From: Patescibacteria group bacterium
Lineage (GTDB): Bacteria; Patescibacteriota; Minisyncoccia; Minisyncoccales; JANBVM01
Reading direction: 5' to 3'
DNA length: 37,251 nucleotides
Assembly (NCBI GenBank): GCA_024239015.1
Contig: JANBVM010000006.1
Location: 1 to 37,251 of the forward strand
Shown in pieces: positions 14,966-35,936 of the stretch (position 1 is its first letter; every line of letters starts with the position of its first letter). The position numbers were made by a program, and so were the translations under genes. Under the pieces are notes generated by a model, which was given only the letters and a program-made list of their open reading frames with translations, had not been told where the DNA came from and ran no database searches.

Positions 14966-14979
14966 TTTTATTCACCCTA

Positions 14980-15701: not shown

Positions 15702-15711
15702 TCTTTTCACC

Positions 15712-16085: not shown

Positions 16086-16088
16086 TGC

Positions 16089-16322: not shown

Positions 16323-16327
16323 CTCCT

Positions 16328-16573: not shown

Positions 16574-16822
16574 CTATGAACTCTCCTCCGTAATGGTTTC
16601 TATTGGATTTTGATTCTCAGGATTTTTATCAGAATCATAGTTAACACTTAACATACCCAAGAAGTCAGATAATTTCATGTTTGAAGCAACTTTAAGGATC
16701 AGTCTGAGTACTTCAGAATTATTTTTTATACCTGTAGCTTTTTTTATTTTCAGAAATGCCTTATAAATTGGGTCATCAATCTTAAATGGTAATCTTAAAT
16801 CAATAGTCTCTTTGTTTGACAT
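16574..16822 (-). CDS. RHH-like regulator, 82 aa, first gene of the left operon
   Basis: Residues 8-48 have the RHH outline: strand TIDLRLPFKIDDPIYKAFLKI, a turn at ATGIKNNSEV, then VLRLILKVA. The pattern DDPIYKAFLKIKKATG matches the divergent 58-aa protein (NDQPIYDFFIEIKKALG), so the two are paralogues. As the promoter-proximal gene facing the operator at 16867-16958, it probably represses its own transcription and that of its neighbour. The C-terminal tail is acidic. Confidence 0.7.
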   Translation of the reverse strand: MSNKETIDLRLPFKIDDPIYKAFLKIKKATGIKNNSEVLRLILKVASNMKLSDFLGMLSVNYDSDKNPENQNPIETITEESS

Positions 16823-19008: not shown

Positions 19009-19398
19009 ATGAAAGAAATGGAATATAAAAATTTGAGAATTTTAAGTATTTTATTGATTGTAGGTAGCAGTTTAGTTTGGTTTGTAATTATGGGACTAAT
19101 TAATAGCATAGGTTTTATAATATATATTCAACACACTGGTTTTTCTCATTGGGAAAGCTTTATGATGATGGAATTAAAAGCTATTCTATGGATTTTTTCT
19201 TCTATGATTTTTGGTGGAATTATAATTGCTTCAATATTATATTTAAGATTAAGAAAGAAAAGATTAACTAAAGTTGAAAAAATAGATAAGATGCCTATAA
19301 GACAAAATCGGGATGTTGGAATTTGTCCTTCCTGTGGTGCTGAAGTTTTAGATAAAACAGGTGATTTCTGCTCTAAATGTGGAGTTTCCTTAAAATAA
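19009..19398 (+). CDS. Two-helix membrane protein with C-terminal zinc ribbon, 129 aa
   Basis: Two membrane segments (about 8-40 and 54-80) precede a basic linker and a zinc ribbon (CPSC, then CSKC, at 106-124). The ribbon is nearly the same as that ending the 425-aa neighbour: both have xVL/ILDKTGxFCSKCG. The two genes share an ancestral C-terminal module and promoter block but differ in the outer part. Likely partners in the same membrane complex or a tandem duplication with shuffling. Confidence 0.65.
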   Translation: MKEMEYKNLRILSILLIVGSSLVWFVIMGLINSIGFIIYIQHTGFSHWESFMMMELKAILWIFSSMIFGGIIIASILYLRLRKKRLTKVEKIDKMPIRQNRDVGICPSCGAEVLDKTGDFCSKCGVSLK

Positions 19399-19828: not shown

Positions 19829-21496
19829 CTATATTTTAATTGGTTTTACAGGATAGGATAAATCAATGCTCTTAATTGAAAATATTTCTAGTATATTATC
19901 AAAAATCCCCAAATATGCATAAACTTCTTTTTTATGCCGTTCCTTCTGTTCACGGGCAAATTTTACTTCAGGATAATATTCTTCTCCAAGGATCGCATCA
20001 TAATGCTGTTTATCAACCTTAATATTTTTTAATGAAAAGACAAAAACTTTATTATTTTTGTAAGCAGCAACATCAAATTCTCCATGTGCGCCATTATTTT
20101 CTACTTTATCAAAAACCTCTAAGGATTGTAGATATTTAGTAAACGCATCTTCTAATAATCTTCCTTTAATCCTATTTACTTCACCTTGAACTTTTCTCAC
20201 TACTTCAGAAATACCTGTTTTACCCTTAATAGTCTTATAGGATTTAGCAATTTCATTATACAATAGTTTCTCCTTTGTTGCTTGTGAATAAATTTCAATA
20301 TCCCTTTCAACATTGCGCCAAACACCTTCCTTTTCTATTCTGATAAGATCATAAATATCAAGATCATCGAATCTGAAATCAAATTTAGTTAAATCTTTTT
20401 TAATATGTTGCTCTATTTCTATTTTAGCATGTTCTTTTCGTTTTTCTTCCATCTTTTTCTCATGGACCTTCTTTAATTCTTGCATTCTCTTCTTCCTACT
20501 TTCAATTCGCTTTCTCTTCCGTTTTACTTTGGACCAGGTTTTATTAATTAGCATAGGCATTGTACTTGAGTCCCACTTCACCATTTTATCTCTTTCAGTA
20601 TCAGGGTCAAATTTAGAATTGTATAAATAAATTTCAGGCTCAATCAAATTCTTTTGGTCAACTTTTTCTCTCATACACCATTTAAAAATAGAATTAATAT
20701 CACGTTTAAATCGTTCAAGGTCGATTTGAGCTGAATAATGGCCCCCATGCTTTATGCCATCAACTATGAAGCCATCTTTTCTTTTCTCATATAATTCTTT
20801 AAGCTTTGGATCTTCATCAATATCAAAATAAATCCTTCCAACGGGTTCTTTTCCATCTTTAAAAGAAGGATCATATAATAAACATCTAATTTGCCCAGTT
20901 TCTTTATTTTTACCGGCAGTCTCTAAGTAATATGTAACTAAAATACTGGTTAATTTTCTTGGCGCAATAAAGATAAATGAATTTAGGTGTTTTCTAATTA
21001 TATCAACGATGTTCCCTAAGTTTTCCTGCATGTTCCTTGTTCCTTTACCGTGCTCTTTAGGTGATTCATCGCGAATCATTACATCACCTATATTTAAAAG
21101 AGGTAATTTCATGTTAAATTCACTTGTAGTAAATGAATCTAATAACGCAATTTCCTTTTCCAAAATAATTTTATTCTGATCTATGATCTCATGACCAACT
21201 TTACGGCCAACTGTAGATTTACCAGAATTGGGTTCACCAAATATTATAAGAAGTAGATTAGTCTCATTTATGCTCCTTGTTATTATCGCGTTATGAAGAC
21301 TTTGAGTATAATTACAACTTTTAGAAAATATATGAATTAATTTTGGGTCGCTGTACTTATTATTGAAGGATTTTTCTTTTATCTCATCTTCAAGTCTAAA
21401 ATTCTTACAGAAATCATGAATTTTATACTTCTTTTTTTGCTCTGCTTTAAGATTTGCTTTCGCTCTTGATAATTTTTCTGTATAATCAACGGTCAT
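19829..21496 (-). CDS. P-loop ATPase fused to a PD-(D/E)XK-like nuclease, 555 aa
   Basis: Residues 80-180 contain a Walker A GEPNSGKST (87-95) and a Walker B-like GDVMIRDE (137-144). A Lys/Arg/Glu-rich helical linker spans about 300-380. The C-terminal domain shows the restriction-like nuclease order: RLLEDAF (Glu449), GEFDVA (Asp475) and FSLKN (Ser488-x-Lys490). The second acidic residue of the (D/E)xK motif is replaced by Ser, so activity is uncertain. The ATPase-nuclease architecture suits DNA packaging, translocation or processing. It is the last gene of the 16-kb membrane-protein operon. Confidence 0.7.
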   Translation of the reverse strand: MTVDYTEKLSRAKANLKAEQKKKYKIHDFCKNFRLEDEIKEKSFNNKYSDPKLIHIFSKSCNYTQSLHNAIITRSINETNLLLIIFGEPNSGKSTVGRKVGHEIIDQNKIILEKEIALLDSFTTSEFNMKLPLLNIGDVMIRDESPKEHGKGTRNMQENLGNIVDIIRKHLNSFIFIAPRKLTSILVTYYLETAGKNKETGQIRCLLYDPSFKDGKEPVGRIYFDIDEDPKLKELYEKRKDGFIVDGIKHGGHYSAQIDLERFKRDINSIFKWCMREKVDQKNLIEPEIYLYNSKFDPDTERDKMVKWDSSTMPMLINKTWSKVKRKRKRIESRKKRMQELKKVHEKKMEEKRKEHAKIEIEQHIKKDLTKFDFRFDDLDIYDLIRIEKEGVWRNVERDIEIYSQATKEKLLYNEIAKSYKTIKGKTGISEVVRKVQGEVNRIKGRLLEDAFTKYLQSLEVFDKVENNGAHGEFDVAAYKNNKVFVFSLKNIKVDKQHYDAILGEEYYPEVKFAREQKERHKKEVYAYLGIFDNILEIFSIKSIDLSYPVKPIKI

Positions 21497-21498
21497 TC

Positions 21499-21957
21499 TT
21501 AATCTAACTCAATATCTTCATCATTAGACTTATCATAATCTCTATAAGAAAGTTGAGCTTTATCTAAAATGTAGTCTTCACCCATTCCTTTTAACAGCAT
21601 TTTTTTCTTGGTTTGGTATGAATCTGCTTGATGAAATGTTAATGCCATCTTAAATGAACCCCATGTAAGATTTAACAATTGCCTGATCAATGCAGCACTC
21701 TGATGTGGTAGTTCACACCCTAATTCCACATCCAATAAATTTGAATAATATGTAAACATTGCATTTGCTACTGGATGACCTGTAGTATTCATTAATGCTC
21801 TTAACTGATGCATTCTCCCTTCTTGAGCTAACCCCTTAAAATCATCTTTAGATATTTTTTCTAACTGTGATTTAGTCAGCCTTTCTTCATCAATCGTTTT
21901 CATGGCCAGATTTAAACTGGCTATTGCTCGTTGATTATCTGATTCTTTTGTCATCAA
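21499..21957 (-). CDS. Helical hypothetical protein, 152 aa
   Basis: Almost entirely alpha-helical, without signal or membrane segment. It has an HxLRALMNTTGHPVANAMF stretch and a Gln/His-rich core, and ends in an acidic tail (DKSNDEDIELD). It overlaps the 339-aa gene by 4 bp and lies 2 bp upstream of the ATPase-nuclease gene, so it may be that enzyme's partner or a small cytosolic linker. No family is recognised. Confidence 0.55.
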   Translation of the reverse strand: MMTKESDNQRAIASLNLAMKTIDEERLTKSQLEKISKDDFKGLAQEGRMHQLRALMNTTGHPVANAMFTYYSNLLDVELGCELPHQSAALIRQLLNLTWGSFKMALTFHQADSYQTKKKMLLKGMGEDYILDKAQLSYRDYDKSNDEDIELD

Positions 21958-22973
21958 AGCCCCCCAGACATTAATTTTAATATATTTGTTGAAGTGGATA
22001 AATTCTCAACAGACGTGGATCCTGTATTTATGGGTATAAAATTAAGAAAAAACCATGCAACAACAAGGGCAAGAACCGCAAAGAAGACAATTATTATTAT
22101 CGCGGTCCAATCTACGGAGACTTTCTTTTTCGAATATTCGCTTTCTTTAAGTCGTTTCTTGAATTCTTGTTCAAGATTATGCTGTCGTTCTGCTTGAATA
22201 TCTTTAGTTCTAACGATATATGCCGCTTTATACAATTCAGCTTTTTGAGCTGATTCATCAATTTGATCCTCTTTTAATTCTTTTTCTCCCATCAGGTGAT
22301 TGATCAATCGTTGCTGATCTTTTTTGATTGTTTGATCAATATTTTTAGCTTCGATCACTGCATTATACAAAAGATCGTAAGTACCAGGAGCATCTCGAAC
22401 TAAAATCACAAAACGACCATGTCTTGATTTTCCTAACATCATCATATTACAACGGCCCATCCTTACTCTGGTTGGATATCCATCCAATTTATGTTTATAA
22501 TTCTCAATCCAGTGGAGTGCATTTTCTAAATGTACCGGTGCTAAGAACTTTATTTCAGAAAATTTCTCTCCGGGAAAATTATCAAATTCTGTGGGATTAT
22601 CTAATACCACTATTGTTTCCTCATAACTATCTAAGATGATCCTCGGAACAACAGAATATATAGCAGGTTTTCTCTCTGTTCTGGAATAATAACAAGCTAA
22701 GTCTATTAAGTCTTTTTTATGCTCAATTAATTTCTCGAAATCATGATACATATCATTAATATAGCCAATGACTTGATACCTATTTTTCTCCAGTGCTTCC
22801 CTTAATTCTCTATGTTCAAATACGGTTGATAATTCCTTCGCTACTTCTTTAAGTCTCTCTCTAAATTGCTTCTTTTCCGTTGCTTTTTTCTCAAAATAAT
22901 TCTTAATTAAAATTCTTATCTTTTCCATCCTTACTTTTATTGGTTTCTTTTCCTTTATTGATTTTTTTTCCAT
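21954..22973 (-). CDS. Tail-anchored membrane protein with long cytosolic domain, 339 aa
   Basis: A charged helical region of about 290 residues is followed by one membrane segment (DWTAIIIIVFFAVLALVVAW) near the C-terminus and a short outer tail. It has coiled-coil-like parts (QRLINHLMGEKELKE and AERQHNLEQEFKKRLKE). The upstream gene overlaps by 71 bp, which is unusually long. Met16 (22928) is an alternative start that would reduce this. It probably anchors the soluble ATPase-side components to the membrane. Confidence 0.6.
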   Translation of the reverse strand: MEKKSIKEKKPIKVRMEKIRILIKNYFEKKATEKKQFRERLKEVAKELSTVFEHRELREALEKNRYQVIGYINDMYHDFEKLIEHKKDLIDLACYYSRTERKPAIYSVVPRIILDSYEETIVVLDNPTEFDNFPGEKFSEIKFLAPVHLENALHWIENYKHKLDGYPTRVRMGRCNMMMLGKSRHGRFVILVRDAPGTYDLLYNAVIEAKNIDQTIKKDQQRLINHLMGEKELKEDQIDESAQKAELYKAAYIVRTKDIQAERQHNLEQEFKKRLKESEYSKKKVSVDWTAIIIIVFFAVLALVVAWFFLNFIPINTGSTSVENLSTSTNILKLMSGGL

Positions 22974-23430
22974 TATCTTCAGCTAATAGTTCTTTTCTTT
23001 TTCCTTGATTTGTATGATCAGGAAGCCTTCCTTCAAGTTTAGCCTTCTCTAAAAGCGCCAGAAGTTCTTTTTTGTCTATTGCTGTGCTTTTTTTGGCTCT
23101 TTTAAATTTTTTAACCCTAAATTCGCAATCCTCCCCCATTTCAGGTCCTTGATCCATAGGTCCTTTTATAATGGAGGTGCCTGATCTTTTTTTTGCATGA
23201 CTATATAATGAATAAACGTACCCAATTGTATAGAGAAGTACATAATAAACTATCCCTTGTAGTAAATAACCTGTGGTCTGAGGATTCAGAATTGAAGTTG
23301 GATTTCCTTCGCTATCTGTGACTTTTAAATTTGTTAATACAAGTGCTACGATTAATAATGCCATTAAAGACCATGTTTGTATGTTTTCCCAGAGTTCCTG
23401 TCCTTTATACCATTTATTCCCAATTTTCAT
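22903..23430 (-). CDS. Two-helix membrane protein with basic tail, 175 aa
   Basis: Two membrane segments (about 17-36 and 52-75, LMALLIVALVL and GYLLQGIVYYVLLYTIGY) are followed by a 100-residue basic, low-complexity cytosolic tail (KKFKRAKKSTAIDKKEL and KGKETNKSKDGKDKN). Such tails can bind DNA or acidic partners. ATG start. It overlaps the 339-aa gene. Confidence 0.55.
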   Translation of the reverse strand: MKIGNKWYKGQELWENIQTWSLMALLIVALVLTNLKVTDSEGNPTSILNPQTTGYLLQGIVYYVLLYTIGYVYSLYSHAKKRSGTSIIKGPMDQGPEMGEDCEFRVKKFKRAKKSTAIDKKELLALLEKAKLEGRLPDHTNQGKRKELLAEDNGKKINKGKETNKSKDGKDKNFN

Positions 23431-23646
23431 CTATAATTTACCTCTACGTTTAGATTTTCGAAATAGTAATGAGATGATTATTGCTATGGCCATCCCCGCA
23501 ATAGTCAATAGGAACATTTGATAATTAAAAAACTCATTCTCTTGAGGATAAGCAACATTTATTCTCGCAGAGATTACTGAAAGAATAATTCCAGTAAGTA
23601 ATGTTAACCCTATAAACAAACCAATTCTTTTTATTCTATTCTTCAA
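23431..23646 (-). CDS. Small two-helix membrane protein, 71 aa
   Basis: Two membrane segments (IGLFIGLTLLTGIILSVI and MFLLTIAGMAIAIIISLLF) joined by a short outer loop, ending in a basic KSKRRGKL tail. This size and layout resembles the major coat proteins of spindle-shaped archaeal viruses, but many unrelated small membrane proteins share it. TTG start with AAGGTG upstream. Confidence 0.5.
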   Translation of the reverse strand: MKNRIKRIGLFIGLTLLTGIILSVISARINVAYPQENEFFNYQMFLLTIAGMAIAIIISLLFRKSKRRGKL

Positions 23647-23670
23647 GTTTTACACCTTTAATATTATTCT

Positions 23671-24165
23671 TTATGTTTTTTTCCTTGATATAAATAAGAT
23701 TATAATTTTGACGATAAGATATGTGATCATTAATGATAAGAGGTTATTTTCTGAACTTGGAAATAAAAGTAATTGCAATAAGATTGTTGCTCCTATCATA
23801 AAAGTAATAGAGCTAAGGAGCATGGCTATAACCCAAGCACCATCCAATCGACTGAGTCCCTGATTTAATGATTCCCATCGTCTTACCTTACTTCCTTTTA
23901 TGACATATTTGAAAAATATTAGCTTTAAAAAGAGAAACGCAAGAACTCTTCCAGATACTGCAGCAAAAAGGGAAATAACAAAGACTAACCCTAATTTTTG
24001 GAGAAATTGTGCACCAACAATATTAAATAAACTAAATTCAGGGTATATTCTAAATAAATTTGTCAACCCAAAGAACAAAAACATTGAAATAATGTTATGA
24101 ATGATAAAATAGAAGTGTTTATCTCCTCTTGCATATCCTTCAGTATCTTGGCTTTCAGTCTTCAT
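23671..24165 (-). CDS. Multi-pass membrane protein, about 164 aa
   Basis: About four membrane segments separated by short loops. The start is taken as ATG 24165 because GGGTGA lies five to six bases upstream. An ATG at 24180 is in frame but lies upstream of that site. The protein is Phe/Leu-rich with an RVLAFLFLKLIFFKYV segment. No recognised family. It overlaps the 91-aa gene. Confidence 0.5.
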   Translation of the reverse strand: MKTESQDTEGYARGDKHFYFIIHNIISMFLFFGLTNLFRIYPEFSLFNIVGAQFLQKLGLVFVISLFAAVSGRVLAFLFLKLIFFKYVIKGSKVRRWESLNQGLSRLDGAWVIAMLLSSITFMIGATILLQLLLFPSSENNLLSLMITYLIVKIIILFISRKKT

Positions 24166-24430
24166 CCTTTTCACCCTCACTGTTTACAATTTTATTGATT
24201 TTCTTACGAAGCAATAGGTAAAAATATCCTGAAAGTGAGATTAAGATAAATATGAAAATCAAGCTAAATATCTCGCTGATCCTCCATATTGATTTATGAT
24301 CTATTACCCCGGGAAGTTGAATTAGTGTAATTAAATGTATTTGAACCCCAAAAATTAATATTGCTATTGACACTAATAATGGCCCATATATCCCTACTTT
24401 AAACCAAAATAATTTTCTCATTTCTTCCAT
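24155..24430 (-). CDS. Two-helix membrane protein, 91 aa
   Basis: Two membrane segments (VGIYGPLLVSIAILIFGVQI and SLIFIFILISLSGYFYLLL) and an acidic C-terminal tail (NSEGEKDED). Both 91- and 164-aa proteins are small integral membrane parts of the module. No further function can be read. Confidence 0.5.
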   Translation of the reverse strand: MEEMRKLFWFKVGIYGPLLVSIAILIFGVQIHLITLIQLPGVIDHKSIWRISEIFSLIFIFILISLSGYFYLLLRKKINKIVNSEGEKDED

Positions 24431-24436
24431 ATCTTA

Positions 24437-24946
24437 TTACACCTGAATTTTTATTTCTATAATATAGAAATCATTTAAGAAAAGAATAAACAATAAGAAA
24501 TAACTAACAATGCTAAAAATGAACAGAGAGATGATATTTTCTAAGAAATAGATTGTAAATGTAATTATTACCTGTGGAAATATCATAAATAGAGCAAACC
24601 CATGAACTCGTCGAAAAAGTGCGGGATTATACATAAATAAAGTAACGTAGCTAATAATAATCAACGCATATAGAGTACCGAAAAATGCCATAAATGATGC
24701 AGATAATACTGATATACTACTAATATATTTCGTTATCAATTGACTTGCTATGATTGATGAGAGAAAAGAGATAAATAACAAGCCAAAAATGATTAAGAAT
24801 AACGTAAATTGTTTGTCAATATTAATTAAGACAAAATCCGTTAATAATTGAGCAAAACCAACCTGAATTATAAGGAAAATTAATAAGGAAATTCCAATTC
24901 CTACTCCTAAGATATTAATAATTTCTTTTCCTTTCATAAAACTCAT
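24437..24946 (-). CDS. Multi-pass membrane protein, 169 aa
   Basis: Four to five membrane segments throughout its length (ILGVGIGISLLIFLIIQV, then LFLIIFGLLFISFLSSI and more). The N-terminus (MSFMKGKEI) is short and basic. No catalytic motif is visible. It lies between the CPBP protease and the 91-aa protein, so it may be a substrate or partner. Confidence 0.5.
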   Translation of the reverse strand: MSFMKGKEIINILGVGIGISLLIFLIIQVGFAQLLTDFVLINIDKQFTLFLIIFGLLFISFLSSIIASQLITKYISSISVLSASFMAFFGTLYALIIISYVTLFMYNPALFRRVHGFALFMIFPQVIITFTIYFLENIISLFIFSIVSYFLLFILFLNDFYIIEIKIQV

Positions 24947-24947
24947 T

Positions 24948-25643
24948 TCAGAAGTTCACCATCCAAAAATATTGACCTACAACCCATATATTCAAAAACA
25001 TATGTGCTAAAATATTTGCTGTTAAATCTCGCCAATACCAAAAGAAAAAGCTAAGTACCAATCCAGAAATAAACACTATTAGCATTAAATTGGGATTTCT
25101 GTAATAGTTTGTATGTAAATAGGCAAATACCAAGGAAGATATAATCATTCCTATAATTTCTGTAATAGTAATTTCTCGATTACCAGGAAGTTTATATTTC
25201 TTAAAGCCTGTCCCGCGACTAATTACTATGAATAATGAGATTAAAAAACCCCGAAAGAAGACTTCTTCTGCGGGAGCAGCAAAAACTATTGCTAAAGCTC
25301 TTTCAGTATCTTGAATCGTAAGTGGTATTCTCATTAAAAACACTTGAATTAAAACTATAATTAAGAAAATAGCTATGGCTCTTAAAAATGTAGATGGATC
25401 TGATTTCTTAAATCGTGGTTTAATTTTAAAAGGTTGACCAAGCAACGGATCAGTTAAAAATAATCCAACCACAGCCACAATTACGTATATCAGTGTAATT
25501 GTCCCAAAAAACTGTTCTTCAGGGTTTAAAGAACCAACATATTTGAATGTTAAGAAAAATTGAAAGATTATTGCTAATAAGATTGTAAGATAACTGATCC
25601 GTGTATTAACACTCTCAGATCCATATTCATCTTCATATTTCAA
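24948..25643 (-). CDS. CPBP (CAAX-type) intramembrane protease, 231 aa
   Basis: A multi-pass membrane protein with the CPBP/ABI motifs: EEVFFRG (Glu126, Glu127, Arg131), the FxxxH of FAYLH (Phe173, His177) and a third histidine in ILAHMFLN (His214). These residues form the metal-dependent or glutamate protease site shared by Rce1 and bacterial ABI proteins. It may process the surface proteins of the operon or tails of membrane-bound partners. TTG start with GGGGTGA upstream. Confidence 0.88.
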   Translation of the reverse strand: MKYEDEYGSESVNTRISYLTILLAIIFQFFLTFKYVGSLNPEEQFFGTITLIYVIVAVVGLFLTDPLLGQPFKIKPRFKKSDPSTFLRAIAIFLIIVLIQVFLMRIPLTIQDTERALAIVFAAPAEEVFFRGFLISLFIVISRGTGFKKYKLPGNREITITEIIGMIISSLVFAYLHTNYYRNPNLMLIVFISGLVLSFFFWYWRDLTANILAHMFLNIWVVGQYFWMVNF

Positions 25644-28600
25644 CCAAAAGTCACCCCATCATTATAGGTCCCTTCTCCAACCTTTCTACTTCTTTTCTTT
25701 TTGATTCTTGGATTAAGCTTCTTCTGTTGATATTTAATTCTAAAATAAAGAAACATCCCTATCATCCCAATTGCTGCTATCACCATTAAAAATATAGAAA
25801 AATTTACAAAATCCAAAAAAAAGGGATTTGGATCTGTTGGAACTGTCTCTTCAGAAAATCCAAAACTTACCACCTTGTTATTTTTATCTAATTCGATTTC
25901 TTTCTCTTCAATTAACGTTCCATTAGTATAATACGTTCGTAGTATATATTCTACATTTGGTAAGAAACGATAGCTTAAACTACTCTGAGCAGGTACAATT
26001 TGAGAAATCTCAATATCATTTCTTTCGATTTCTAACCGAATTGAATGAGTATAATTATTGTTTATTACAAGTGTGTAAACCTCAACATTGATACTATATT
26101 CTGTATAAGATCGTAGATTGAGATCCTGGTTAAATAGTGTTGCATTGAAATAATCTAAAACGTTCAAATTGTTAGTGTCTTGAGTTATGGTATTAAATCC
26201 TAAATCTTTTCTCAATCCGTTTATATAAAACCTAAATAAATTCGGATCTAATCCTAATCCATCGAAATTAAATAAGCTAAAATAAACATTGAAATAAGTA
26301 GAATTAATGATTAATATTTGATGTGAAACTAAATTGATATTAATAGATTGGAGAGAATTATCCTCTTGATTAGTGTAATTAAAAATATATACTCCAGAAC
26401 TAATTTGATATTCTATTATTTCTCCAGGAAAAATATTTCCCGATTTTTCTATATTCGAATTATTATTTGTTAAAGTAAAATTAACTAACTCTATAGCTTC
26501 ATTCTTAATTTTTAGAGAAAATATGTTTAAAGTAATATCTATAAATGTCTCTTCATAAGTTTCATAATTCTTTACTAAAACATCAAAGGAATCATAAATA
26601 TTAAATGTAATTAACGTATCATCATCTACAGATAATATTTTATTTGATAAGCGATCATTTAGAATATTTAATCCATCATACGTATAATTAACGTAAGTTG
26701 TAAACAAATTAAAATCAAGATACTCATTATTTACATCATAAAGAGAAATATAACATTCCTTTACTTTAGGAACTTCATAAATTAACGTAATCGTTTCATT
26801 AGAACTTGTAAAATTAACTGAATAAACTAATAGATTCTGTTCATATACATTACAAGTAAAATCGTTAGGATACTCAAGAAAAATCTGTTTAATACCATCT
26901 GGATCTACATTTTCTTCAATTATTTCTCCTGAAGAGATATACCTAAAAATTCTGATATTTTCTATGAATAGATTCTTTGTATCATCAAAAATTCCTTCAA
27001 ATTCTAACTGATCTACTGTCATATCAGAATCTATACTAATTGTTTTAGTATAAGTATCAAAATTAAGATTTCCTTGCTTAGAGATTTGATAACTTCCTTG
27101 TTCTACACCACTATTTAATACATTAATATCAATTTTATTTGATGAGCTAGTATTAAACTGAATCTCAATTTTATCTCCTGATAATAAAGTTAAATTGAGA
27201 TTATTTTTACTTCTTACCTTTAATGTTTCAGTTTCGTTAGTTTGGATATAAGTATATCCATCTCCATTAGAAACTTTAGAATTATCGAATATATTATCAC
27301 ATCTATAAACCAAATAACTAGGATTGGAAGCATACCAATATCCATCATAAAAAAACAGAGTATAAACTGATAAAATGTATTCCAATGGATAAGTATCTAT
27401 CTTATTCCAACTTGTATCGAATTTATATGCATATTGAGTACCACTTCTCGCACCAGAAACGTAGAACTCACCATTAACAACATCTAAGCCATATATCGAA
27501 GTTAATGATGTATCACTCATTACATCATAATCAGCAACATAATTAAAACTCGAATCATACTTATAGACAAGACCAGATTTATCTGCAACATACCAATATC
27601 CGTCATAATAAAAAAGATCTGTTGGATGAGCGATAGCACCACCACCAGAATTCTTCAGATCATAAGAAGTTCCCGTATAACTCCAATCAGGATTATATTT
27701 ATATGCTTTATTCCCTATATTTCCTGCCAAATACCAATATCCATCATAAAAATAAATTCCTTCAGGATAATCATCTTCAGAATTTATATTCCAAGAAGTT
27801 CCTGTATAACTCCAATCAGGATTGTATTTTATAATTAAATCATTAGTACCACCAGAATCATGACTAGAAACATACCAATATCCATTATAAAAAGATATAC
27901 CTCTAATAGAATCTGCTCCTCCAGATATAGTAAATTGAGATTCATAAGTAAAAGACATCATCTCAAAAGAACTATTTTCAACTAAATATGGATTATCCCT
28001 TTCTGATGTTAATATCGTAAAGTTTGTATTTGATACATCATGTAAAAGCCAATTATCAGAACTAACACCAAAATCCTGTTCATACAAATCATTTTCAGTA
28101 AAATCTGATCCTAAAATTTCCCATTCTGTATAATATTCACTCTCAGAAATTAACTCTACGTTAGGTTCAAATTGGACTATATTAATATATCTATAAGTTG
28201 AATTATGTTCCGTTCCTAATCCTTCATCCAAGACAAAACGATATTTCCAAGTACCGATTAAATTTAGGGATTTTTCGTATTCAAAATCTGTTTTAAAATA
28301 AATTATAATTGTAAGCTGATCTATTTTTAGATTAAATTCTGAGCTGTTAAACCCATAATACTTGAACCTCATGTTCCCATTAGAATCAAATAATCCACTT
28401 ATACCATCATAGCTTATTACATCATACTCAACCAGTGTTTCTGATGTATATATATCATTATCAATTAAAACCCAAGAAGTTGATGTAAAATTATAAATAC
28501 TGAAACTCATATTGGCTAAAATAGAAGTAAAATGTCTTGAATCGATATTAAGTTGCATAACTTCATGGTCGTAATACCCAAAAGGAATATCCATATAGAA

Positions 28601-30877
28601 ATCAATCATGGCTTCTATAATCCCATGTTGGTTATCTCCAACTGTGTTTCCAGATGTCCAAGAATAACTTATAGCATCAAAATATCCCGAATATGTAGCA
28701 ACAGAAGCTAAATAGCTTCGAAGTCTATCTACATTATCAACAGCATTCCAAAAAGGAAATGGGCCAAATCGAACGTTATCAATCCACACGTAAAACGTAT
28801 CAGCAGATAATCCTTTATATCCTCCAGATCCACATTCAAACTCAATCTTCACATGATACCATGTGTCATCGGTAGCTGCAACCCCTACATCTTTTGTAGC
28901 ACCATCATGATATTGCCATTTCTCGTTTTCTATTGATACCAAAAAGGCAGTTGTTGCTGTACCATCATTTAAGCGTAATTGAAAGGAATGAGTTGCATCA
29001 CTACTGTTCATCCAACCTTCTAACGTTCCAGAGGATTGAGATGCAAAAGTAGGACTATAGAAATAAGCATTTCCACCACCCACTGTCGTGTTTATTTGTA
29101 GTACTTTTTTATGTGCATTAAATTCTGGGATAATCTCTGCTGAAAGACCAGCTCCAATAGAGGAAACAAACCCTATTGAAGTCCCAGAAGTTCCCACGTC
29201 TTTACTTTCAAAATCAGAATCTTGATCTTTTAGGTTTGTGTAATAAACATTATCTCCAATATTGTAAGTAGTATCCCCAGACTCTCCATAAGCATCAATA
29301 TATGCTTCCAAACTATTAACACCATCACCTTCTTGAAGCTGAAATCTCCAATAGGGTATCGATGTTGCTACATAATCATTATAAAAGTTCTCATCATCTA
29401 CTACTAACACACCATTAAGCCAAATAGATTGTTTATCCGTAGCACAACTAAATTGCAACTTGATGTGATGCCATGTATCTGCAACAGCACTATAATCATC
29501 AATAGTAGTTCCTCCCACACCATTACCGTATCGTATGTAGATTTTATTATCTAATGAATCTATCCAAAAACTAATTATTGTAATTGAACCTTCATTAATA
29601 CCATAAAAAGCCAGTAGTCCTTGACCATTATCAATATATTTAATCCAAACTTCAACCGTTCCTGCTGTTTCTGTTTCAGTATGACGCCATTGACTGTATT
29701 TCGTATTATCTCCTGCTGATAAGATTTTCATTACACCTTTATGTCCATCTTCAGACGCAACAATTTCAGCACTATAACTGGAATCAGTTCCAGATTCATC
29801 ATCTACCCAAGAAATATCAGTCCCACTTGTATAAACTAATTCATTTTCAAAACCATATGTCGCAGGATAATGACCTAAAGGATCTTGGTCTTCTCGATTA
29901 TCGCCAACAGTATATCCAGAATCCCAAGAATAAGCAACAGCATCGAGATACATAGTGAAATCTGTTTGACTATTATCTGTAACAAATCTGATATAATCCA
30001 TAGCAGAAGGACTACCTTTATAACTGTATCCAACACCACTATCCATAGAAACTCCATTAATCCATAAATGCCAATCTGTTGCAGTATCAAACTCAATTTT
30101 AATGTGATACCAAGTATTAGCAGAATATGATTGTATCGTATGCCAAGACCCATCGTCATATTCTATATCTCCATTATCCATAAATCTAAGATAACTTCCT
30201 ATGTTCCATGAACCATCATTAACAGAAAAATACACAGGTTTATTAGTTTGAGCTACTCTTAACCAATATTCTACAGTTCCTGTTGCTCTTTCTGTAAAAA
30301 ACTGTTCAACTTGGTTTCCACTTACTCCAGAATTGTCATATATTTTTAAAACTTTTTTATGCCCATCTAAATTAGAAGTTATAGAAATATCACAGCCAGG
30401 TTGTTGATTAATAGAAAAACCAACTGGATCAGAGCCATCCAAATCACTTTCAAAACTATAAGTAGCATTATAAACACCAACTCCATCATAATCGAACTGG
30501 GCATTTGAATCATCGTTAGATTGCATATTATCAGTATCAAAATACGTCCCATTAGTCATAACAACATTAGTTTCATCAACAGGTTGCTGAGATTCTGTAT
30601 TTTCAAAAGAAGTTATCGCATGAGAATATGTAAGTGTTGGATCCTCTATATATACAAATTCTATTTTTGAAGTAGTCCATGCAAAAGTAGGATCCGAATC
30701 ATCATAGAACGTTCCCTGATATAAATAATTTTTTCCAACATTAACAAGTGTTCCTTTGGAAACAGAAATATCTTCTTCTTGTATTGCAGAATTTCCAAAA
30801 CTAACTAAACTTGAAAAAATTGGAATAAAAATTAATAATAATACCAGGAGAAAATTAAGTTTTTTTTTATTTAGCAT
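25640..30877 (-). CDS. Giant surface protein: three LamG/ConA-like repeats, beta-propeller, C-terminal membrane anchor, 1745 aa
   Basis: An N-terminal signal segment (LNFLLVLLLIFIPIFSSL) leads into three repeats of about 165 residues (roughly 165-330, 370-540, 585-750). Each has an HKKVL or HKGVM strand, a TWYHIKIEF or TWHHIKLQF strand and a closing aromatic segment, as in LamG/ConA jelly rolls. Residues about 980-1195 hold five or six FYDGYWY(V/L/A) blades, probably a beta-propeller. Ser/Thr/Asn-rich beta repeats follow, then a membrane helix near 1680-1712 and a basic tail. It is likely an adhesin or receptor-binding surface protein. The start overlaps the HExxH protease gene by 11 bp. Confidence 0.8.
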   Translation of the reverse strand: MLNKKKLNFLLVLLLIFIPIFSSLVSFGNSAIQEEDISVSKGTLVNVGKNYLYQGTFYDDSDPTFAWTTSKIEFVYIEDPTLTYSHAITSFENTESQQPVDETNVVMTNGTYFDTDNMQSNDDSNAQFDYDGVGVYNATYSFESDLDGSDPVGFSINQQPGCDISITSNLDGHKKVLKIYDNSGVSGNQVEQFFTERATGTVEYWLRVAQTNKPVYFSVNDGSWNIGSYLRFMDNGDIEYDDGSWHTIQSYSANTWYHIKIEFDTATDWHLWINGVSMDSGVGYSYKGSPSAMDYIRFVTDNSQTDFTMYLDAVAYSWDSGYTVGDNREDQDPLGHYPATYGFENELVYTSGTDISWVDDESGTDSSYSAEIVASEDGHKGVMKILSAGDNTKYSQWRHTETETAGTVEVWIKYIDNGQGLLAFYGINEGSITIISFWIDSLDNKIYIRYGNGVGGTTIDDYSAVADTWHHIKLQFSCATDKQSIWLNGVLVVDDENFYNDYVATSIPYWRFQLQEGDGVNSLEAYIDAYGESGDTTYNIGDNVYYTNLKDQDSDFESKDVGTSGTSIGFVSSIGAGLSAEIIPEFNAHKKVLQINTTVGGGNAYFYSPTFASQSSGTLEGWMNSSDATHSFQLRLNDGTATTAFLVSIENEKWQYHDGATKDVGVAATDDTWYHVKIEFECGSGGYKGLSADTFYVWIDNVRFGPFPFWNAVDNVDRLRSYLASVATYSGYFDAISYSWTSGNTVGDNQHGIIEAMIDFYMDIPFGYYDHEVMQLNIDSRHFTSILANMSFSIYNFTSTSWVLIDNDIYTSETLVEYDVISYDGISGLFDSNGNMRFKYYGFNSSEFNLKIDQLTIIIYFKTDFEYEKSLNLIGTWKYRFVLDEGLGTEHNSTYRYINIVQFEPNVELISESEYYTEWEILGSDFTENDLYEQDFGVSSDNWLLHDVSNTNFTILTSERDNPYLVENSSFEMMSFTYESQFTISGGADSIRGISFYNGYWYVSSHDSGGTNDLIIKYNPDWSYTGTSWNINSEDDYPEGIYFYDGYWYLAGNIGNKAYKYNPDWSYTGTSYDLKNSGGGAIAHPTDLFYYDGYWYVADKSGLVYKYDSSFNYVADYDVMSDTSLTSIYGLDVVNGEFYVSGARSGTQYAYKFDTSWNKIDTYPLEYILSVYTLFFYDGYWYASNPSYLVYRCDNIFDNSKVSNGDGYTYIQTNETETLKVRSKNNLNLTLLSGDKIEIQFNTSSSNKIDINVLNSGVEQGSYQISKQGNLNFDTYTKTISIDSDMTVDQLEFEGIFDDTKNLFIENIRIFRYISSGEIIEENVDPDGIKQIFLEYPNDFTCNVYEQNLLVYSVNFTSSNETITLIYEVPKVKECYISLYDVNNEYLDFNLFTTYVNYTYDGLNILNDRLSNKILSVDDDTLITFNIYDSFDVLVKNYETYEETFIDITLNIFSLKIKNEAIELVNFTLTNNNSNIEKSGNIFPGEIIEYQISSGVYIFNYTNQEDNSLQSININLVSHQILIINSTYFNVYFSLFNFDGLGLDPNLFRFYINGLRKDLGFNTITQDTNNLNVLDYFNATLFNQDLNLRSYTEYSINVEVYTLVINNNYTHSIRLEIERNDIEISQIVPAQSSLSYRFLPNVEYILRTYYTNGTLIEEKEIELDKNNKVVSFGFSEETVPTDPNPFFLDFVNFSIFLMVIAAIGMIGMFLYFRIKYQQKKLNPRIKKKRSRKVGEGTYNDGVTFG

Positions 30878-31418
30878 GTGAATACCTTCTTAATTTTCTA
30901 ATAAAAATAAAAATACTTAGAATGATACCAAAAACAAAAATTAGATAAAATATTACTCCAAAAATGAATAGAGTTTTCAAGTCAATAAATCTTTCATAAA
31001 GAACGCTAATATCTCCTATATTTAATATTCCACTAATACCCAAATACCAAATTTCTCTTAATATAGACCAAAATCCAAAAGCAAGTAAATAATAATTCTT
31101 TCGAAATAATCCAGAAATTAGAAAAGGAATTGAGAGAAGAACTGATCCAATTACTCCTGCTAATAGTGTTAGAGTAAATGGAACAGGAAGAGTATTAGTA
31201 AAAAATATATCTGCATAAACCATTGGAATTCCTTTTTGAGTTAAATAACCAATTCCATCAACTCTATATCCACATAGAATTGCAACAAACATGTGAGAGA
31301 ATTCATGCATAAATAAACCATAATATTGAGAACCGATAAGTAATATTATTGTAATTAATCCAACACTAATTTTTTCTGGATTAAGTCTAATTACTTCAAT
31401 CGAATTTTTATACCACAT
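30867..31418 (-). CDS. M50-like (site-2-protease-type) membrane metalloprotease, about 183 aa
   Basis: A multi-pass membrane protein with YYGLFMHEFSHMFVAIL, containing HExxH in a membrane segment, the zinc site of M50/site-2-type proteases. It is short for the family and I see no clear NPDG-type motif, so the aspartate ligand is uncertain. I prefer ATG 31418, since GGTGAG lies just upstream. A longer start at 31472 would put 18 residues before it. It lies beside the giant surface protein that a membrane protease could process. Confidence 0.65.
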   Translation of the reverse strand: MWYKNSIEVIRLNPEKISVGLITIILLIGSQYYGLFMHEFSHMFVAILCGYRVDGIGYLTQKGIPMVYADIFFTNTLPVPFTLTLLAGVIGSVLLSIPFLISGLFRKNYYLLAFGFWSILREIWYLGISGILNIGDISVLYERFIDLKTLFIFGVIFYLIFVFGIILSIFIFIRKLRRYSHAK

Positions 31419-31425
31419 CTTTTTC

Positions 31426-32268
31426 TCACCGTTTTTTTCTTTTATATAAAAAACAAAATCCAATAACAACAATCGAAATTATCACTAAAATGATAACGTT
31501 CCCAGGATGTATATAATCAACAGGTTGGGATAACGTAATTTTAATATTATCTACATAAAATCGAAAATTTCTTGGTGTTGCTATTGCTATAAAATATAAC
31601 GAAGCAAAATAAGGGGGATTGTATTTCGGATAATAAAATACCCCTAAAAAATCCCCATTTATAGTTAATAAAAATCTTTCCCGAGTAAAATCTATTCTTA
31701 TTAAGTACCAAGAATTTGCGTCATAATTCATAACAGGAACAGAGTTTAAAAGATTCTGTTCATCAATAGCCCATGACAATTCATCATTTAATAATATTAG
31801 CCTCTCCCCAAACGAAGGGGGATTCTCTGATTCAATAATATCATCCTCTCCAACCACATATATTCCTCCTTTCAAAAACATAATCATAATGTCATCATAA
31901 GGATTATATTCACGATCCAATTGAGGAATATGAATCGCAAACCCATTCTGTATATCAAGAGGTTTTACCTTACACTCAATAATCCCTTCAGATGTTCTTT
32001 TGAACCTTTTCACGATTTCCGTTATTTGGGAAGTTGTGCCTCTGACTTCCATAACCTTATTTCCACTGTCAGAAACAACTCTTATATTAAATGGATTTAC
32101 AGCAGATATCCATCCTATTGGAAAAAGACCAGGAATTTGATCTTCAAAATTATCTTCTAAATAATTATAAGAAAGGATAGGTTTGTTTGCATGATATAAA
32201 AACGCTCCTACAGGTATAGAAATTAAAATGAATCCTGCAATCAACAATAAATTTCTCTTGTTCTTCAT
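31426..32268 (-). CDS. Anchored surface protein with one ConA-like domain, 280 aa
   Basis: It has a signal anchor (NLLLIAGFILISIPVGAFL), then one beta-sandwich of about 200 residues, like a single repeat of the 1745-aa protein (DANSWYLIRIDFTRERFLLTI compares with TWYHIKIEF). A C-terminal membrane helix (VIILVIISIVVIGFCFLY) and RKKR tail follow. It lies between the 52-aa gene and the HExxH protease. Likely a carbohydrate- or surface-binding partner of the giant protein. Confidence 0.7.
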   Translation of the reverse strand: MKNKRNLLLIAGFILISIPVGAFLYHANKPILSYNYLEDNFEDQIPGLFPIGWISAVNPFNIRVVSDSGNKVMEVRGTTSQITEIVKRFKRTSEGIIECKVKPLDIQNGFAIHIPQLDREYNPYDDIMIMFLKGGIYVVGEDDIIESENPPSFGERLILLNDELSWAIDEQNLLNSVPVMNYDANSWYLIRIDFTRERFLLTINGDFLGVFYYPKYNPPYFASLYFIAIATPRNFRFYVDNIKITLSQPVDYIHPGNVIILVIISIVVIGFCFLYKRKKR

Positions 32269-32273
32269 TTTAA

Positions 32274-32432
32274 TTAATCTCTTAATGTATTTTGGGAAAG
32301 GATGGAATTTGGTTCAAAATTAGAGTGAGGTGTTTCCCTAAAGTATGAACCAACTTCCATGTTAGCTGAAAATAATAAATTAAAAATAAGTGTGAGAATA
32401 CGTTTTTTAGCTTTTTTCAGTTTTTTTACCAT
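32274..32432 (-). CDS. Small basic signal-anchored protein, 52 aa
   Basis: An ATG preceded by GAGGTG at 8-9 bp opens a frame in the gap between two surface genes. The N-terminus VKKLKKAKKR is very basic and a hydrophobic segment (ILTLIFNLLFS) follows, with a polar tail. It resembles a signal-anchored mini-protein. The strong ribosome-binding site is the main support. Confidence 0.5.
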   Translation of the reverse strand: MVKKLKKAKKRILTLIFNLLFSANMEVGSYFRETPHSNFEPNSILSQNTLRD

Positions 32433-32468
32433 TTTTATAACACCTCATCATAAAACTTAAAAAAAAAA

Positions 32469-33404
32469 TTATTTCGACTTTAATTTACTTCGTTTTCTGT
32501 ATTTTAGATAAATTATTGTGGCAATTAATCCTCCAAGGCCCCCAAGTAGAATATATAAAATCGTATAGTCAGTTATAGGTGTTGATTGTTCAGTTGGCGG
32601 TGGTAGTGGTGGTGGCGGTGGTGATTGAATGGTAGGAATCGTTACAGTTACGGTTATAATGTTGGAGTCAGGAGACCTCTTTGTTGGATTAACACCAATA
32701 ATTTTGTAATTATAGTTTCCATTAGTTATAATTGTGTCAGTATACGTGCCTGTTATTATTAAATCTGCTATTCTTACATAAGGAGCACCATCATCGCTAC
32801 GCCAGACCTCATAAGATAAAGCTGAAGATTCTTTAGTCCAACTTAATTGTATTATTCCATCAGAACTTACACTGGGAATAATTACTGTTAAAAATAGTGC
32901 AGGAATTTCGGGTATTATGATGATTGGTGGTGGTGGTGGTTCTAAAGGAGATATTATTGATATATCTACTATAACTGATTTTATATTAGATAAAATAGAA
33001 ATTCCATATTCTGAATATGCTTTTACAGCGTATTCAAATGTTCCACTTGTTAGTCCTCTATGTGTATATGCAATTAAAACTGTAGTTTTTATAAGAACCC
33101 AACTTCCTCCTCTTGGACGAAAATAGAGCTGATATCCAACTGAACTTATAGAGCTAACAATACTCCATTGTAAACTGATATCTCCATCTGTATCAGGATT
33201 CGGGATTATTGATGCAAGAATTGGTGCAGGAGGAGGGAAAACCTGTACTGGCGGTGGTGGTGGCGGTGGTAAAGAACCACCACCATCATCATGCAATATA
33301 AATGCTAGAGGAATAACTTGTGTTAAGGTAAAGCCCACAATTGTTATTGATAATATTCCTACTATTAAAGACACAATTAAGAAGTTTTTTTGTTTTTTTT
33401 TCAT
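32469..33404 (-). CDS. Surface protein with two fibronectin-III-like domains and proline-rich linkers, 311 aa
   Basis: A signal segment (NFLIVSLIVGILSITIVGFTL) leads into three proline runs (up to seven in a row) separating two Fn3-like domains (about 57-147 and 168-255). These contain the paired Trp/Tyr/Leu core motifs ISLQWSI, YEVWRSDDG and YNYKIIGV. A C-terminal membrane helix follows, with a basic tail. The layout is that of a stalk or spacer on the cell surface. The DNA holds GGTGGCGGTGG-type low-complexity stretches that encode the prolines. Confidence 0.75.
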   Translation of the reverse strand: MKKKQKNFLIVSLIVGILSITIVGFTLTQVIPLAFILHDDGGGSLPPPPPPPVQVFPPPAPILASIIPNPDTDGDISLQWSIVSSISSVGYQLYFRPRGGSWVLIKTTVLIAYTHRGLTSGTFEYAVKAYSEYGISILSNIKSVIVDISIISPLEPPPPPIIIIPEIPALFLTVIIPSVSSDGIIQLSWTKESSALSYEVWRSDDGAPYVRIADLIITGTYTDTIITNGNYNYKIIGVNPTKRSPDSNIITVTVTIPTIQSPPPPPLPPPTEQSTPITDYTILYILLGGLGGLIATIIYLKYRKRSKLKSK

Positions 33405-33409
33405 ATCAA

Positions 33410-34867
33410 TTATCTCCTCTTTGAACCTCTCATTATTTCCCTAATTTCATTTCGTCTCTGTCTTCCCCGTATTATTGGACCTCCAATTTTAATGAATAAA
33501 TAACCTCCAATAATGACACCAAGGATTATTATTATAGGCAACCATCCAATTCCAAAAGGATTTAACCAATCTAATCCCGGTGTTTCTGTGTGCTGTTGTC
33601 CACCACCAAATCCATCTACAGTTGTTAGCCATGTAAGAAGATCGTAATATTCCATCGGAAAATCTAAATTATAATCTTCAATTCCATCAGCACCTACATC
33701 AATTTTATAGGATGTAAATATATCAAAAACCACTTTGACTTCTGACTGAATATATCTATTGGTGACATGTAAAGCAATAGGTCTTGTATGTGAATAATCT
33801 TGTGGCTCATTCCTTTTTGTGCCAATCTGCCAAAATGGTTCATCTACTGTTTCATAATATAAATAAGTGTATGATAACGTAGCTGAATATTCCATCACTA
33901 CTGGCGAAATTGATCCAAGATTGTAAATAAATCTGGCATCAGTCATAGAACTCTGTTGAAGTTTAGGATCCCATATTGGACTTCCACTTTTTGTTCTTGG
34001 ATTCATAGAACTCCCTGCTGATTGTGGCATAATACCACCATCAAATGAATCCGAGAAATCACTAAGTATATTTAAATTTATATCTGGATCATAATAAGCG
34101 TTCCATTTATTACCAGCAGTACCTCCAAAAGAATCTAAAGGACTAAGAATATTTTTTTTTTCTTCATATTTTCTTGGAGTTAAACCAACAATATCAGGTA
34201 GAGAATCATCTAATTTACCATAAAGATTATCAACTACACCAATGGAAGAAACAGCTACATAGTCAAAACTCTTTGTTAAACTATCTCCAGAAAGTGTTTG
34301 AAAATTAGGAAGTGGACTTTGAGCTATATCAAATGACATTACCAAATCTCCCCCAAAATCATTATGTATGGAATTCCATTGTTTTACATTACCAAAATCA
34401 TAATGAGTCCAGTGAAGATATGCTTCCCATCCAAACATTCTATGTCCAAAAAGACCTGAATGTTGATACTCAGCTACTAAAAAATCTTCAGTTATTCTAT
34501 TTAATAGATTATTTTCTGCTCCTTGATTTATCTCTACAGTTGTATACATATTGATCTTACTTGTCATCCCTACTTTATATCTAATATAAACATCATCTCC
34601 CTGTGTAAAAATGTTAACTAACTGTATATCATTTGGATTAATTCTCCATGAAGCCTGTGATTCAAATTGGAGTTTTTGGTCATTTGTTTGACCAGATAAA
34701 CCCACAGGATTACCATCAAAAGATTCAAACTTAAAATTCTTTATAATATCATTTGATATTAAATAAACGTCATCTCCAACAGCGTGTACTATTGGAATAA
34801 ATAGAATTAAAGAACTACAAAAAAATAAAATAAGAAAAAAAAAACTTTTAGATTTGTGTGTTTTCAT
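33410..34867 (-). CDS. Signal-peptide and tail-anchored surface protein, 485 aa
   Basis: The start is taken as ATG 34867 because GAGGTGATC, a near-perfect Shine-Dalgarno site, precedes it. The longer frame begins at GTG 34888. Signal segment (SFFFLILFFCSSLILFIPIV), then a 430-residue Tyr/Asp/Asn-rich outer domain (FGHRMFGWEAYLHWTHYDF), one C-terminal membrane helix (LPIIIILGVIIGGYLFIKI) and a basic tail. No family is recognised. Probably a structural surface component with an unknown beta fold. Confidence 0.7.
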   Translation of the reverse strand: MKTHKSKSFFFLILFFCSSLILFIPIVHAVGDDVYLISNDIIKNFKFESFDGNPVGLSGQTNDQKLQFESQASWRINPNDIQLVNIFTQGDDVYIRYKVGMTSKINMYTTVEINQGAENNLLNRITEDFLVAEYQHSGLFGHRMFGWEAYLHWTHYDFGNVKQWNSIHNDFGGDLVMSFDIAQSPLPNFQTLSGDSLTKSFDYVAVSSIGVVDNLYGKLDDSLPDIVGLTPRKYEEKKNILSPLDSFGGTAGNKWNAYYDPDINLNILSDFSDSFDGGIMPQSAGSSMNPRTKSGSPIWDPKLQQSSMTDARFIYNLGSISPVVMEYSATLSYTYLYYETVDEPFWQIGTKRNEPQDYSHTRPIALHVTNRYIQSEVKVVFDIFTSYKIDVGADGIEDYNLDFPMEYYDLLTWLTTVDGFGGGQQHTETPGLDWLNPFGIGWLPIIIILGVIIGGYLFIKIGGPIIRGRQRRNEIREIMRGSKRR

Positions 34868-34892
34868 AGGTTTGATCACCTCAAACACGACT

Positions 34893-35936
34893 TTATACTC
34901 CTATTGAGCTATATGCTGTAAATGTAACTGGTACATCATTAGGAACTGTGACACGTCCGCTTTGTACAGTTGAAACTGAAATATTGTCTCCCATATACAT
35001 CTCAAATTTGAAATCGTAAGCACCATTTTCAAAGTTAATTACTTCAGTAACAAGAAGATATACAAAAGTACCACTAATTACTGCTCTGACATTTTCACCT
35101 TTAGCAACAGTGACATTGACTTCAAGTACATTTCCAATTATAGTACTAATTGAAGCATCGAACGTAATTCTTATAGCAAAGAATTCTGTATAAGCTTCTA
35201 AACCCTCAATGTATTCATGGTCTGCGGTATCGAGAGTAGGATCAAGATAAGGAGCTTGAACTCTCCAGTTCTTTTCATCCCACACTTCATTCTTTTGAGC
35301 ATCAGTGTAATCAGCGAAATCAGTAGCAGATAAATCCCAACCAGTACCATAATGCATATCAGCAACAGTCTGAGTTAGATGTGGAGCATCGAGTAAAACT
35401 GTATGATTATCATCCCCATTATAATTATAAGCACCAACATTATCAGGCCATGAAGCATTCAAGTTAGAATCCAAGATGTTAAAGTTTACATCAGAAGTCG
35501 GGTGATATACATAGAATTCATAATCATAGTTCACGCCACCAACTAATAAACGAAATATATTGGCAAACACAGAATTCCCAGTAATTTCAGCCCATACATG
35601 AGCCTCATCTCGTAAATCAATTGAAATATCATCAGCGTCTTTACCAGATTCTGCTCGTTCAAAATTAGACATTGTATAGACGTCATCCATGTCATCAAAA
35701 GTCGCACTTGACTTCGGTGTCCAAATATCCATTTCTACGAAATTACTAACGTCTTCCCCATCTGGATAAGACCATAATGTAAAAGTAGAAGTTGTTTTCT
35801 CCGGTGTTGTAACCGTACCACCTAAATTTATATTTCCCAATTGAATTACTCCTGTTCCCATAAGAACTACGATGACGAAAATGATGATACTCCCGCCCAA
35901 AATCAACCTTTTATGTCCTTTTTTCAATTTTTTCAC
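34893..35936 (-). CDS. N-terminally anchored surface protein, first gene of the 16-kb operon, 347 aa
   Basis: A basic N-terminus (KKLKKGHKRL) precedes one membrane segment (ILGGSIIIFVIVVLMGTG), then about 310 residues of Asp/Thr/Val-rich beta-like sequence with no cysteine group. It is the promoter-proximal gene, which often encodes the most abundant structural part. It could be a coat-like or matrix protein. The start is a GTG at 35936 or a TTG at 35927 after GTGA. Confidence 0.6.
   Translation of the reverse strand: MKKLKKGHKRLILGGSIIIFVIVVLMGTGVIQLGNINLGGTVTTPEKTTSTFTLWSYPDGEDVSNFVEMDIWTPKSSATFDDMDDVYTMSNFERAESGKDADDISIDLRDEAHVWAEITGNSVFANIFRLLVGGVNYDYEFYVYHPTSDVNFNILDSNLNASWPDNVGAYNYNGDDNHTVLLDAPHLTQTVADMHYGTGWDLSATDFADYTDAQKNEVWDEKNWRVQAPYLDPTLDTADHEYIEGLEAYTEFFAIRITFDASISTIIGNVLEVNVTVAKGENVRAVISGTFVYLLVTEVINFENGAYDFKFEMYMGDNISVSTVQSGRVTVPNDVPVTFTAYSSIGV

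Follow-up and report, generated by a model that had tools for sequence, protein, structure and literature searches.

A membrane and surface operon of sixteen genes, linked to viral adhesins, on an apparently mis-binned element of archaeal type

Introduction

The pR1SE-like plasmids of haloarchaea carry a vesicle-structural core with a giant protein (open reading frame 6, ORF6, often of the WD40/propeller type), a protease and the lectin-like ORF17, and the last gene of this core encodes a protein with a fold like those of VirB4, HerA and a viral packaging NTPase (PMC10818511). MCM is their commonest replication gene, repeats adjoin the core, and similarity among the homologues of ORF6 is as low as about 18% (PMC10818511). 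Pleolipoviruses, which bud without lysis and have no capsid, encode a spike, an internal membrane protein, two further ORFs and an NTPase in one compact cluster (PMC5882103). Here, we describe an operon of comparable layout at positions 19829–35936 (minus strand) of contig JANBVM010000006.1 (assembly GCA_024239015.1), which was sorted into the genome bin of a Patescibacteria group bacterium. The window, i.e., the whole stretch of DNA analyzed, is this complete contig of 37,251 bp (C6), one of the 58 in the bin.

An initial annotation of the locus had suggested a module for virions, vesicles or cell-contact transfer. We found that the operon is real, coherent and largely unrecognized, that it has links to viral adhesins, and that it lies on a mis-binned archaeal element. 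Our preferred, still tentative reading, held with somewhat less than even confidence, is that it may serve an archaeal extrachromosomal element, be it a plasmid or a virus, as its dissemination (surface or particle) module, with a mode of action resembling that of haloarchaeal plasmid vesicles or pleolipoviruses.

Results

The minus strand between 19829 and 35936 carries 16 co-directional ORFs arranged head to tail. Counted from the first gene, the distances between successive ORFs are 4, 5, 36, 5, −47, −11, −4, 1, 6, −26, 24, 0, −71, −4 and 2 nt. This range of −71 to +36 nt makes a single transcript the natural reading, and the sixteen-gene operon of the initial annotation was thus borne out by ORF order and spacing. 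A TATA-like A/T-rich stretch was located upstream of the first gene. According to hydropathy, five of the products are terminally anchored surface proteins and two are polytopic proteases. Six more are membrane proteins, of which four are small and two have charged cytoplasmic parts; the ATPase-nuclease and one further protein are soluble. Hydropathy and motifs therefore agree with the layout first proposed, in which anchored surface proteins and a giant adhesin-like protein stand beside small membrane proteins and an ATPase-nuclease. The genes of the ATPase-nuclease and of the 152-, 339- and 175-amino-acid (aa) proteins mutually overlap or abut, and they continue the surface genes without a break.

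The 1,745-aa giant protein (25640..30877, minus strand) provided the clearest external link. It has a signal at the N-terminus by hydropathy, three ConA-like domains, five propeller-like repeats, a C-terminal transmembrane (TM) segment with a basic tail, and 24 N-glycosylation sequons. The repeats, of 43–47 aa each, lie at residues ~990–1185 and have a spacing typical of beta-propellers. Among 50,697 phage records, the sole match at E 1e-3 was the adhesin of the Lokiarchaeota virus WyrdV1, with 28% identity over 464 aa (E 4e-44; 9.8e-51 in the pairwise comparison). A Pfam sialidase-like carbohydrate-binding module (CBM) scored above its cut-off. The AlphaFold prediction for six ConA-like repeats gave a jelly roll of usable confidence (predicted local distance difference test, pLDDT, 74; predicted template modelling score, pTM, 0.76), for which Foldseek returned sialidase sugar-binding domains and CBM66 from the PDB, and phage LamG/ConA proteins. 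Binding domains of clostridial neurotoxins also appeared in the Foldseek output for the ConA domain; they were dismissed as generic jelly-roll matches, and no toxin activity is suggested. The predicted fold and these matches indicate that the giant protein is probably a glycan-binding adhesin.

A search with the repeat alignment matched two IMG/VR contigs. The larger one, IMGVR_UViG_3300002053_000022 (L075), belongs to a tailed virus with baseplate J and tail collar genes, and its 817-aa tail-fibre-like ORF shares the ConA-like domains with 28–31% identity by tblastn. The relatives of the giant protein in two viral genomes, WyrdV1 and L075, are presumed to be host-attachment proteins. Neither the giant protein nor the ATPase-nuclease had a tblastn match among 72,556 plasmids, a collection in which the pR1SE record was not found.

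Both membrane proteases of the initial annotation keep their motifs, and one of them passed its family threshold. The CPBP/Rce1-like glutamic intramembrane protease (24948..25643, minus strand) retains EExxxR, FxxxH and HxxxN as EEVFFR, FAYLH and HMFLN, and its PF02517 match (1.4e-14, 54.6 bits over a cut-off of 22.4) places it in the family. Its best NCBIfam models were CPBP proteins of the myxosortase type, which sort surface proteins (3e-8, below their cut-offs). The M50B-like intramembrane metalloprotease (30867..31472, minus strand) contains HEFSH at residues 56–60 and NIGD at 151–154; it matched Pfam Peptidase_M50B at 7.8e-4 with 19.6 bits, below the cut-off of 26. In L075, an M50-like membrane protein with HExxH is encoded at 13660–14160, downstream of the tail-fibre ORF with the ConA domains. 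Pairwise comparison of this protein with the M50B-like protease gave E=0.001. A protease beside an adhesin may be a recurrent viral pair. Four of the surface proteins end in a TM segment and a basic tail, and these would be plausible substrates for the proteases.

The last gene of the operon encodes a 555-aa soluble ATPase-nuclease (19829..21496, minus strand). It combines a Walker A motif (GEPNSGKST, residues 87–95) and a DE-containing Walker B motif (138–145) with a basic linker and a C-terminus of the NERD/PD-(D/E)xK-like kind (GEFDVAAY...FSLKN, 472–491); the NERD match was weak (0.014) when this part was tested alone. No relatives were detected in the phages by tblastn or in 286 other genomes of the bin's phylum. 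Exact-word scans of IMG/VR and GTDB found nothing, and neither did a search of IMG/VR with the Walker A DNA pattern. The GTDB scan, which of the operon proteins covered the ATPase, is a weak test for the same operon in host chromosomes. One match in a genome of the phylum (E 4e-4) was taken as chance, as stops interrupt the alignment.

The remaining surface proteins are encoded mainly at the proximal end of the operon, all on the minus strand. The first gene (34893..35936) yields a 347-aa protein anchored by a single N-terminal hydrophobic segment; it had no family match in Pfam or PHROG and no relative in the exact-word scan of IMG/VR. It is followed by a spike-like protein of 492 aa (33410..34888; 485 aa if started at an internal ATG) with a signal-like N-terminus, a large ectodomain, one C-terminal TM segment and a basic tail. 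This protein matched nothing in Pfam, PHROG or NCBIfam, and no relative was found among 379 phylum genomes or, by exact words, in IMG/VR. Its single-sequence AlphaFold model had a pLDDT of 36, too poor for a fold search. The 311-aa protein (32469..33404) contains two Ig/FnIII-like domains, proline-rich linkers and a C-terminal anchor, with matches to the PHROG tail fibre J (3e-7) and, weakly, to Pfam Ig_J. The 280-aa protein (31426..32268) is membrane-anchored and has one probable ConA-like domain, with 20% identity to that of the giant protein in the alignment. In both the 311- and the 280-aa proteins, hydropathy placed a hydrophobic segment at each end. The 52-aa ORF between their genes (32274..32432), known from the ORF call alone, is a doubtful gene.

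Downstream of the CPBP gene, the operon encodes four small membrane proteins assigned by hydropathy: a 169-aa polytopic protein with about six TM segments (24437..24946), a 91-aa two-TM protein (24155..24430), a second 169-aa polytopic protein with about five TM segments (23671..24180), and a 71-aa two-TM hairpin with basic ends (23431..23646). Neither 169-aa protein had a family match, and the 91-aa protein had none above cut-off. Next come a membrane protein of 175 aa whose cytoplasmic tail is basic (22903..23430) and a 339-aa protein with a charged domain, a TM segment near the C-terminus and a short tail (21954..22973). The 339-aa protein had no relative in the phages by tblastn or in IMG/VR by exact-word scan. 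The 152-aa protein (21499..21957) is soluble by hydropathy and had no family match.

In agreement with the initial annotation, no operon protein matched a known capsid, conjugation or secretion family in Pfam, PHROG, NCBIfam or the phage records. Models of terminase, portal and HK97 coat proteins matched neither the operon proteins nor 10 proteins encoded outside it, the latter scanned with PHROGs. A tblastn search of the phage records with most of the other operon proteins concatenated, the 311-aa, 52-aa and CPBP proteins excepted, returned nothing.

WyrdV1 (MZ666939, a spindle-type virus) shows the adhesin with homologous ConA-like repeats, an accessory rather than a defining trait. In its genome, the coat and adhesin genes are followed by those of small membrane proteins, a protein anchored at its C-terminus, a small soluble protein and, last, the ATPase; this order is paralleled in the operon by the adhesin, small membrane proteins, the 339-aa protein, the 152-aa protein and the ATPase. 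In contrast to the operon, the 15.6-kb WyrdV1 has an ATPase of the pI type and coat genes that are His1-like, to which no operon gene is detectably homologous, and it has no proteases or MCM annotated. The 71-aa protein had been likened to a spindle-virus coat protein. This likeness held for the layout but did not extend to sequence: shuffled alignments with the WyrdV1 coats gave p of about 0.04–0.07 before correction for 11 pairs, which is near chance. The 339-aa protein scored at chance against B277, and the 555-aa protein had neither a Zot/pI match nor an alignment to the WyrdV1 ATPase. The WyrdV1 coat itself obtained no PHROGs score, so the lack of a profile match to a coat says little. 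The WyrdV1 ATPase, however, was recognized as Zot/pI-like, and therefore the miss of the 555-aa protein counts against membership in the spindle viruses.

The pR1SE-like plasmids have in common with the locus a giant surface protein, often with a propeller domain, a protease, lectin-like proteins, a terminal ATPase, frequently MCM, and repeats; they differ in being haloarchaeal and in having a subtilisin in place of the intramembrane proteases. The Pleolipoviridae likewise have a single cluster in which a spike-like protein with a C-terminal anchor is encoded together with small membrane proteins and an NTPase, but their genomes measure 7–16 kb, and the operon has many more surface proteins (PMC5882103, PMC10599561). 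The 492-, 347-, 71- and 555-aa proteins had no Pfam, PHROG or phage match that would tie them to this family. L075 resembles the locus in the ConA-like domains of its tail-fibre-like ORF and in the M50-like membrane protein downstream, and departs from it in its baseplate and tail genes; within the 20 kb compared, the two have no ATPase or spike genes in common.

The main contigs of the bin have a GC content of about 0.355 and bacterial cell-wall and replication genes, whereas C6 has a GC content of 0.302. To the left of the operon, a replication-type module (913–16822) contains an MCM helicase (3504..5924, minus strand; Pfam MCM 1.8e-11), a TFIIB-like protein (weak Pfam match of 0.0042, below cut-off), ParB, two methyltransferases, ribbon-helix-helix proteins, a TOPRIM-like protein and an exonuclease with kinship to the exonuclease subunits of phage polymerases (4.5e-22, PHROGs). 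Inverted 20-bp repeats are clustered at 283–349 (three copies) and 602–729 (five copies) with an A-tract between them, and they form a candidate replication origin. The MCM had no relative among 379 other genomes of the bin's phylum. As this archaeal-type MCM, found with the TFIIB-like protein and the repeats, lacks relatives in the phylum, C6 is most simply explained as archaeal DNA wrongly sorted into a bacterial bin. The host is probably Lokiarchaeon-like; we infer this from the WyrdV1 adhesin match and from the overall character of the surface proteins.

The two contig halves resemble each other in tetranucleotide profile without matching fully (r = 0.78). Surface genes commonly deviate in composition, but a chimeric assembly of C6 would formally be an alternative. 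The ends of C6 showed no terminal repeats and no overlap with the other bin contigs fetched, and a simple script found no CRISPR arrays targeting the window in the latter. Among the contig proteins scanned, none was recognized as an integrase, capsid or terminase, and neither a tRNA nor an Rfam RNA was recognized in the window. Two further contigs of the bin, C1 and C11, have low GC and look archaeal, and their tetranucleotide profiles come closest to that of C6. C1, with a length of 75 kb, is chromosome-like and rich in defence genes, and near-identical genes are common to C1 and C11.

Divergent from the operon, a 425-aa accessory, host-like surface protein with a TM segment and a C-terminal zinc ribbon is encoded at 17624..18901 (plus strand). 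A protein on C1 is 50–52% identical to it over 80–99 aa; a GTDB scan with the 425-aa protein found nothing. The plus-strand genes at 17624–18901 and 19009–19398 encode membrane proteins with similar C-terminal zinc ribbons, and their DNA shows a duplication with 75% identity over 91 nt. In the replication-type module, a 589-aa protein (13196–14965) has a TOPRIM-like region, a weak JetD match (E 2.6e-4, PADLOC) and a TopoVI-A-like appearance by eye. It had no match in Pfam, NCBIfam, PHROG or the PDB, and the exact-word scans of IMG/VR were empty for this protein and for an 806-aa protein. A serine-rich 170-aa winged-helix protein is encoded at 14980–15492, where a 60-bp stretch is duplicated internally and almost perfectly, 105 bp apart.

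Discussion

If the operon is a dissemination module, the small polytopic proteins, together with the 175- and 339-aa proteins, would mark a membrane patch whose exterior would be studded with the 492-, 347-, 311-, 280- and 1,745-aa proteins. The giant protein would bind glycans of the target cell through its ConA-like domains, and the CPBP and M50-type proteases might trim the proteins with C-terminal anchors or set them free. The ATPase-nuclease would recruit the DNA of the element, then cut it or pump it into the bud. The likeness of such a particle to plasmid vesicles and pleolipoviruses would be one of layout without detectable homology. The virion, vesicle or transfer module originally suggested is partly supported, by the MCM/TFIIB-like/ParB/methyltransferase module on the contig and by the kinship with viral adhesins.

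Several observations weigh against a dissemination module. None of the operon proteins was recognized as a member of a known spike, coat or packaging family, and the 555-aa ATPase matched no FtsK/HerA, Zot/pI or terminase model in Pfam, PHROG or NCBIfam. The comparison with plasmid vesicles draws on a layout read from papers, not on homology. ConA-like adhesins and intramembrane proteases are also found on cells. The giant protein has relatives in WyrdV1 and L075, but none was found for the other full-length operon proteins beyond generic matches to protease and Ig/FnIII-type domains, and thus no co-conservation was seen. At the right contig end, a ferredoxin-nitroreductase gene (36524–37225) looks host-like and is apparently either cargo or flanking host DNA, and so an integrated state or a cargo-bearing plasmid is possible.

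The nitroreductase would also suit a plasmid- or chromosome-borne cell-surface cluster, in which protease-matured adhesins serve the attachment of the host cell to other cells or to particles, no particle is exported, and the ATPase-nuclease is unrelated or belongs to defence. The surface-sorting type of the CPBP protease, the wide occurrence of ConA folds, and the approximately 50%-identical relative of the adjoining zinc-ribbon protein on the chromosome-like, defence-rich C1 point in the same direction. This explanation is kept as the most serious competitor, and a distinctly possible one, since the same domains are in use on cell surfaces. Against it speak the ATPase-nuclease, 152-, 339- and 175-aa genes, which run on from the surface genes with overlapping or abutting ends, and the only match of the adhesin in the phage set, which comes from a Lokiarchaeota virus.

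The gene layout parallel to that of WyrdV1 and the TFIIB-like gene present in both genomes could instead suggest a true virus with an unrecognized coat, such as a large, spindle-shaped relative of the wyrdviruses with the 71-aa hairpin protein as coat, the giant protein as terminal fibre and the 555-aa protein as packaging ATPase. Shuffled-alignment tests of the coat, B277, soluble, ATPase and TFIIB-like pairs were at or near chance, and we regard such a virus as unlikely. We give still less credence to cell-contact DNA transfer, with the adhesins making the mating contact and the ATPase-nuclease acting as a coupling ATPase and a relaxase substitute. The fusion of an ATPase to a nuclease-like domain and the adjoining membrane proteins with charged cytoplasmic parts would fit this role. 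No VirB4/VirD4-type ATPase, relaxase or pilin was matched, though, in Pfam, NCBIfam or, for the ATPase, the plasmid collection; the sole T4SS_pilin score (0.35, Pfam) fell on a protease.

The dissemination module could, in a bolder and rather improbable version, represent a new class of Asgard-archaeal elements that spread their DNA in adhesin-covered membrane particles. The elements themselves would encode all that these particles require, namely anchored lectins, proteases acting within the membrane and an ATPase-nuclease for packaging, and would have evolved independently of pleolipoviruses and plasmid vesicles. Separately, the mis-binning of C6 shows that elements of its kind hide inside bacterial genome bins. 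If the proposal is true, an element in which sugar-binding adhesins are coupled to intramembrane proteolysis and an ATPase-nuclease would be relevant to the traffic of genes into and out of these cells, and to the gradation between membrane vesicles and viruses.

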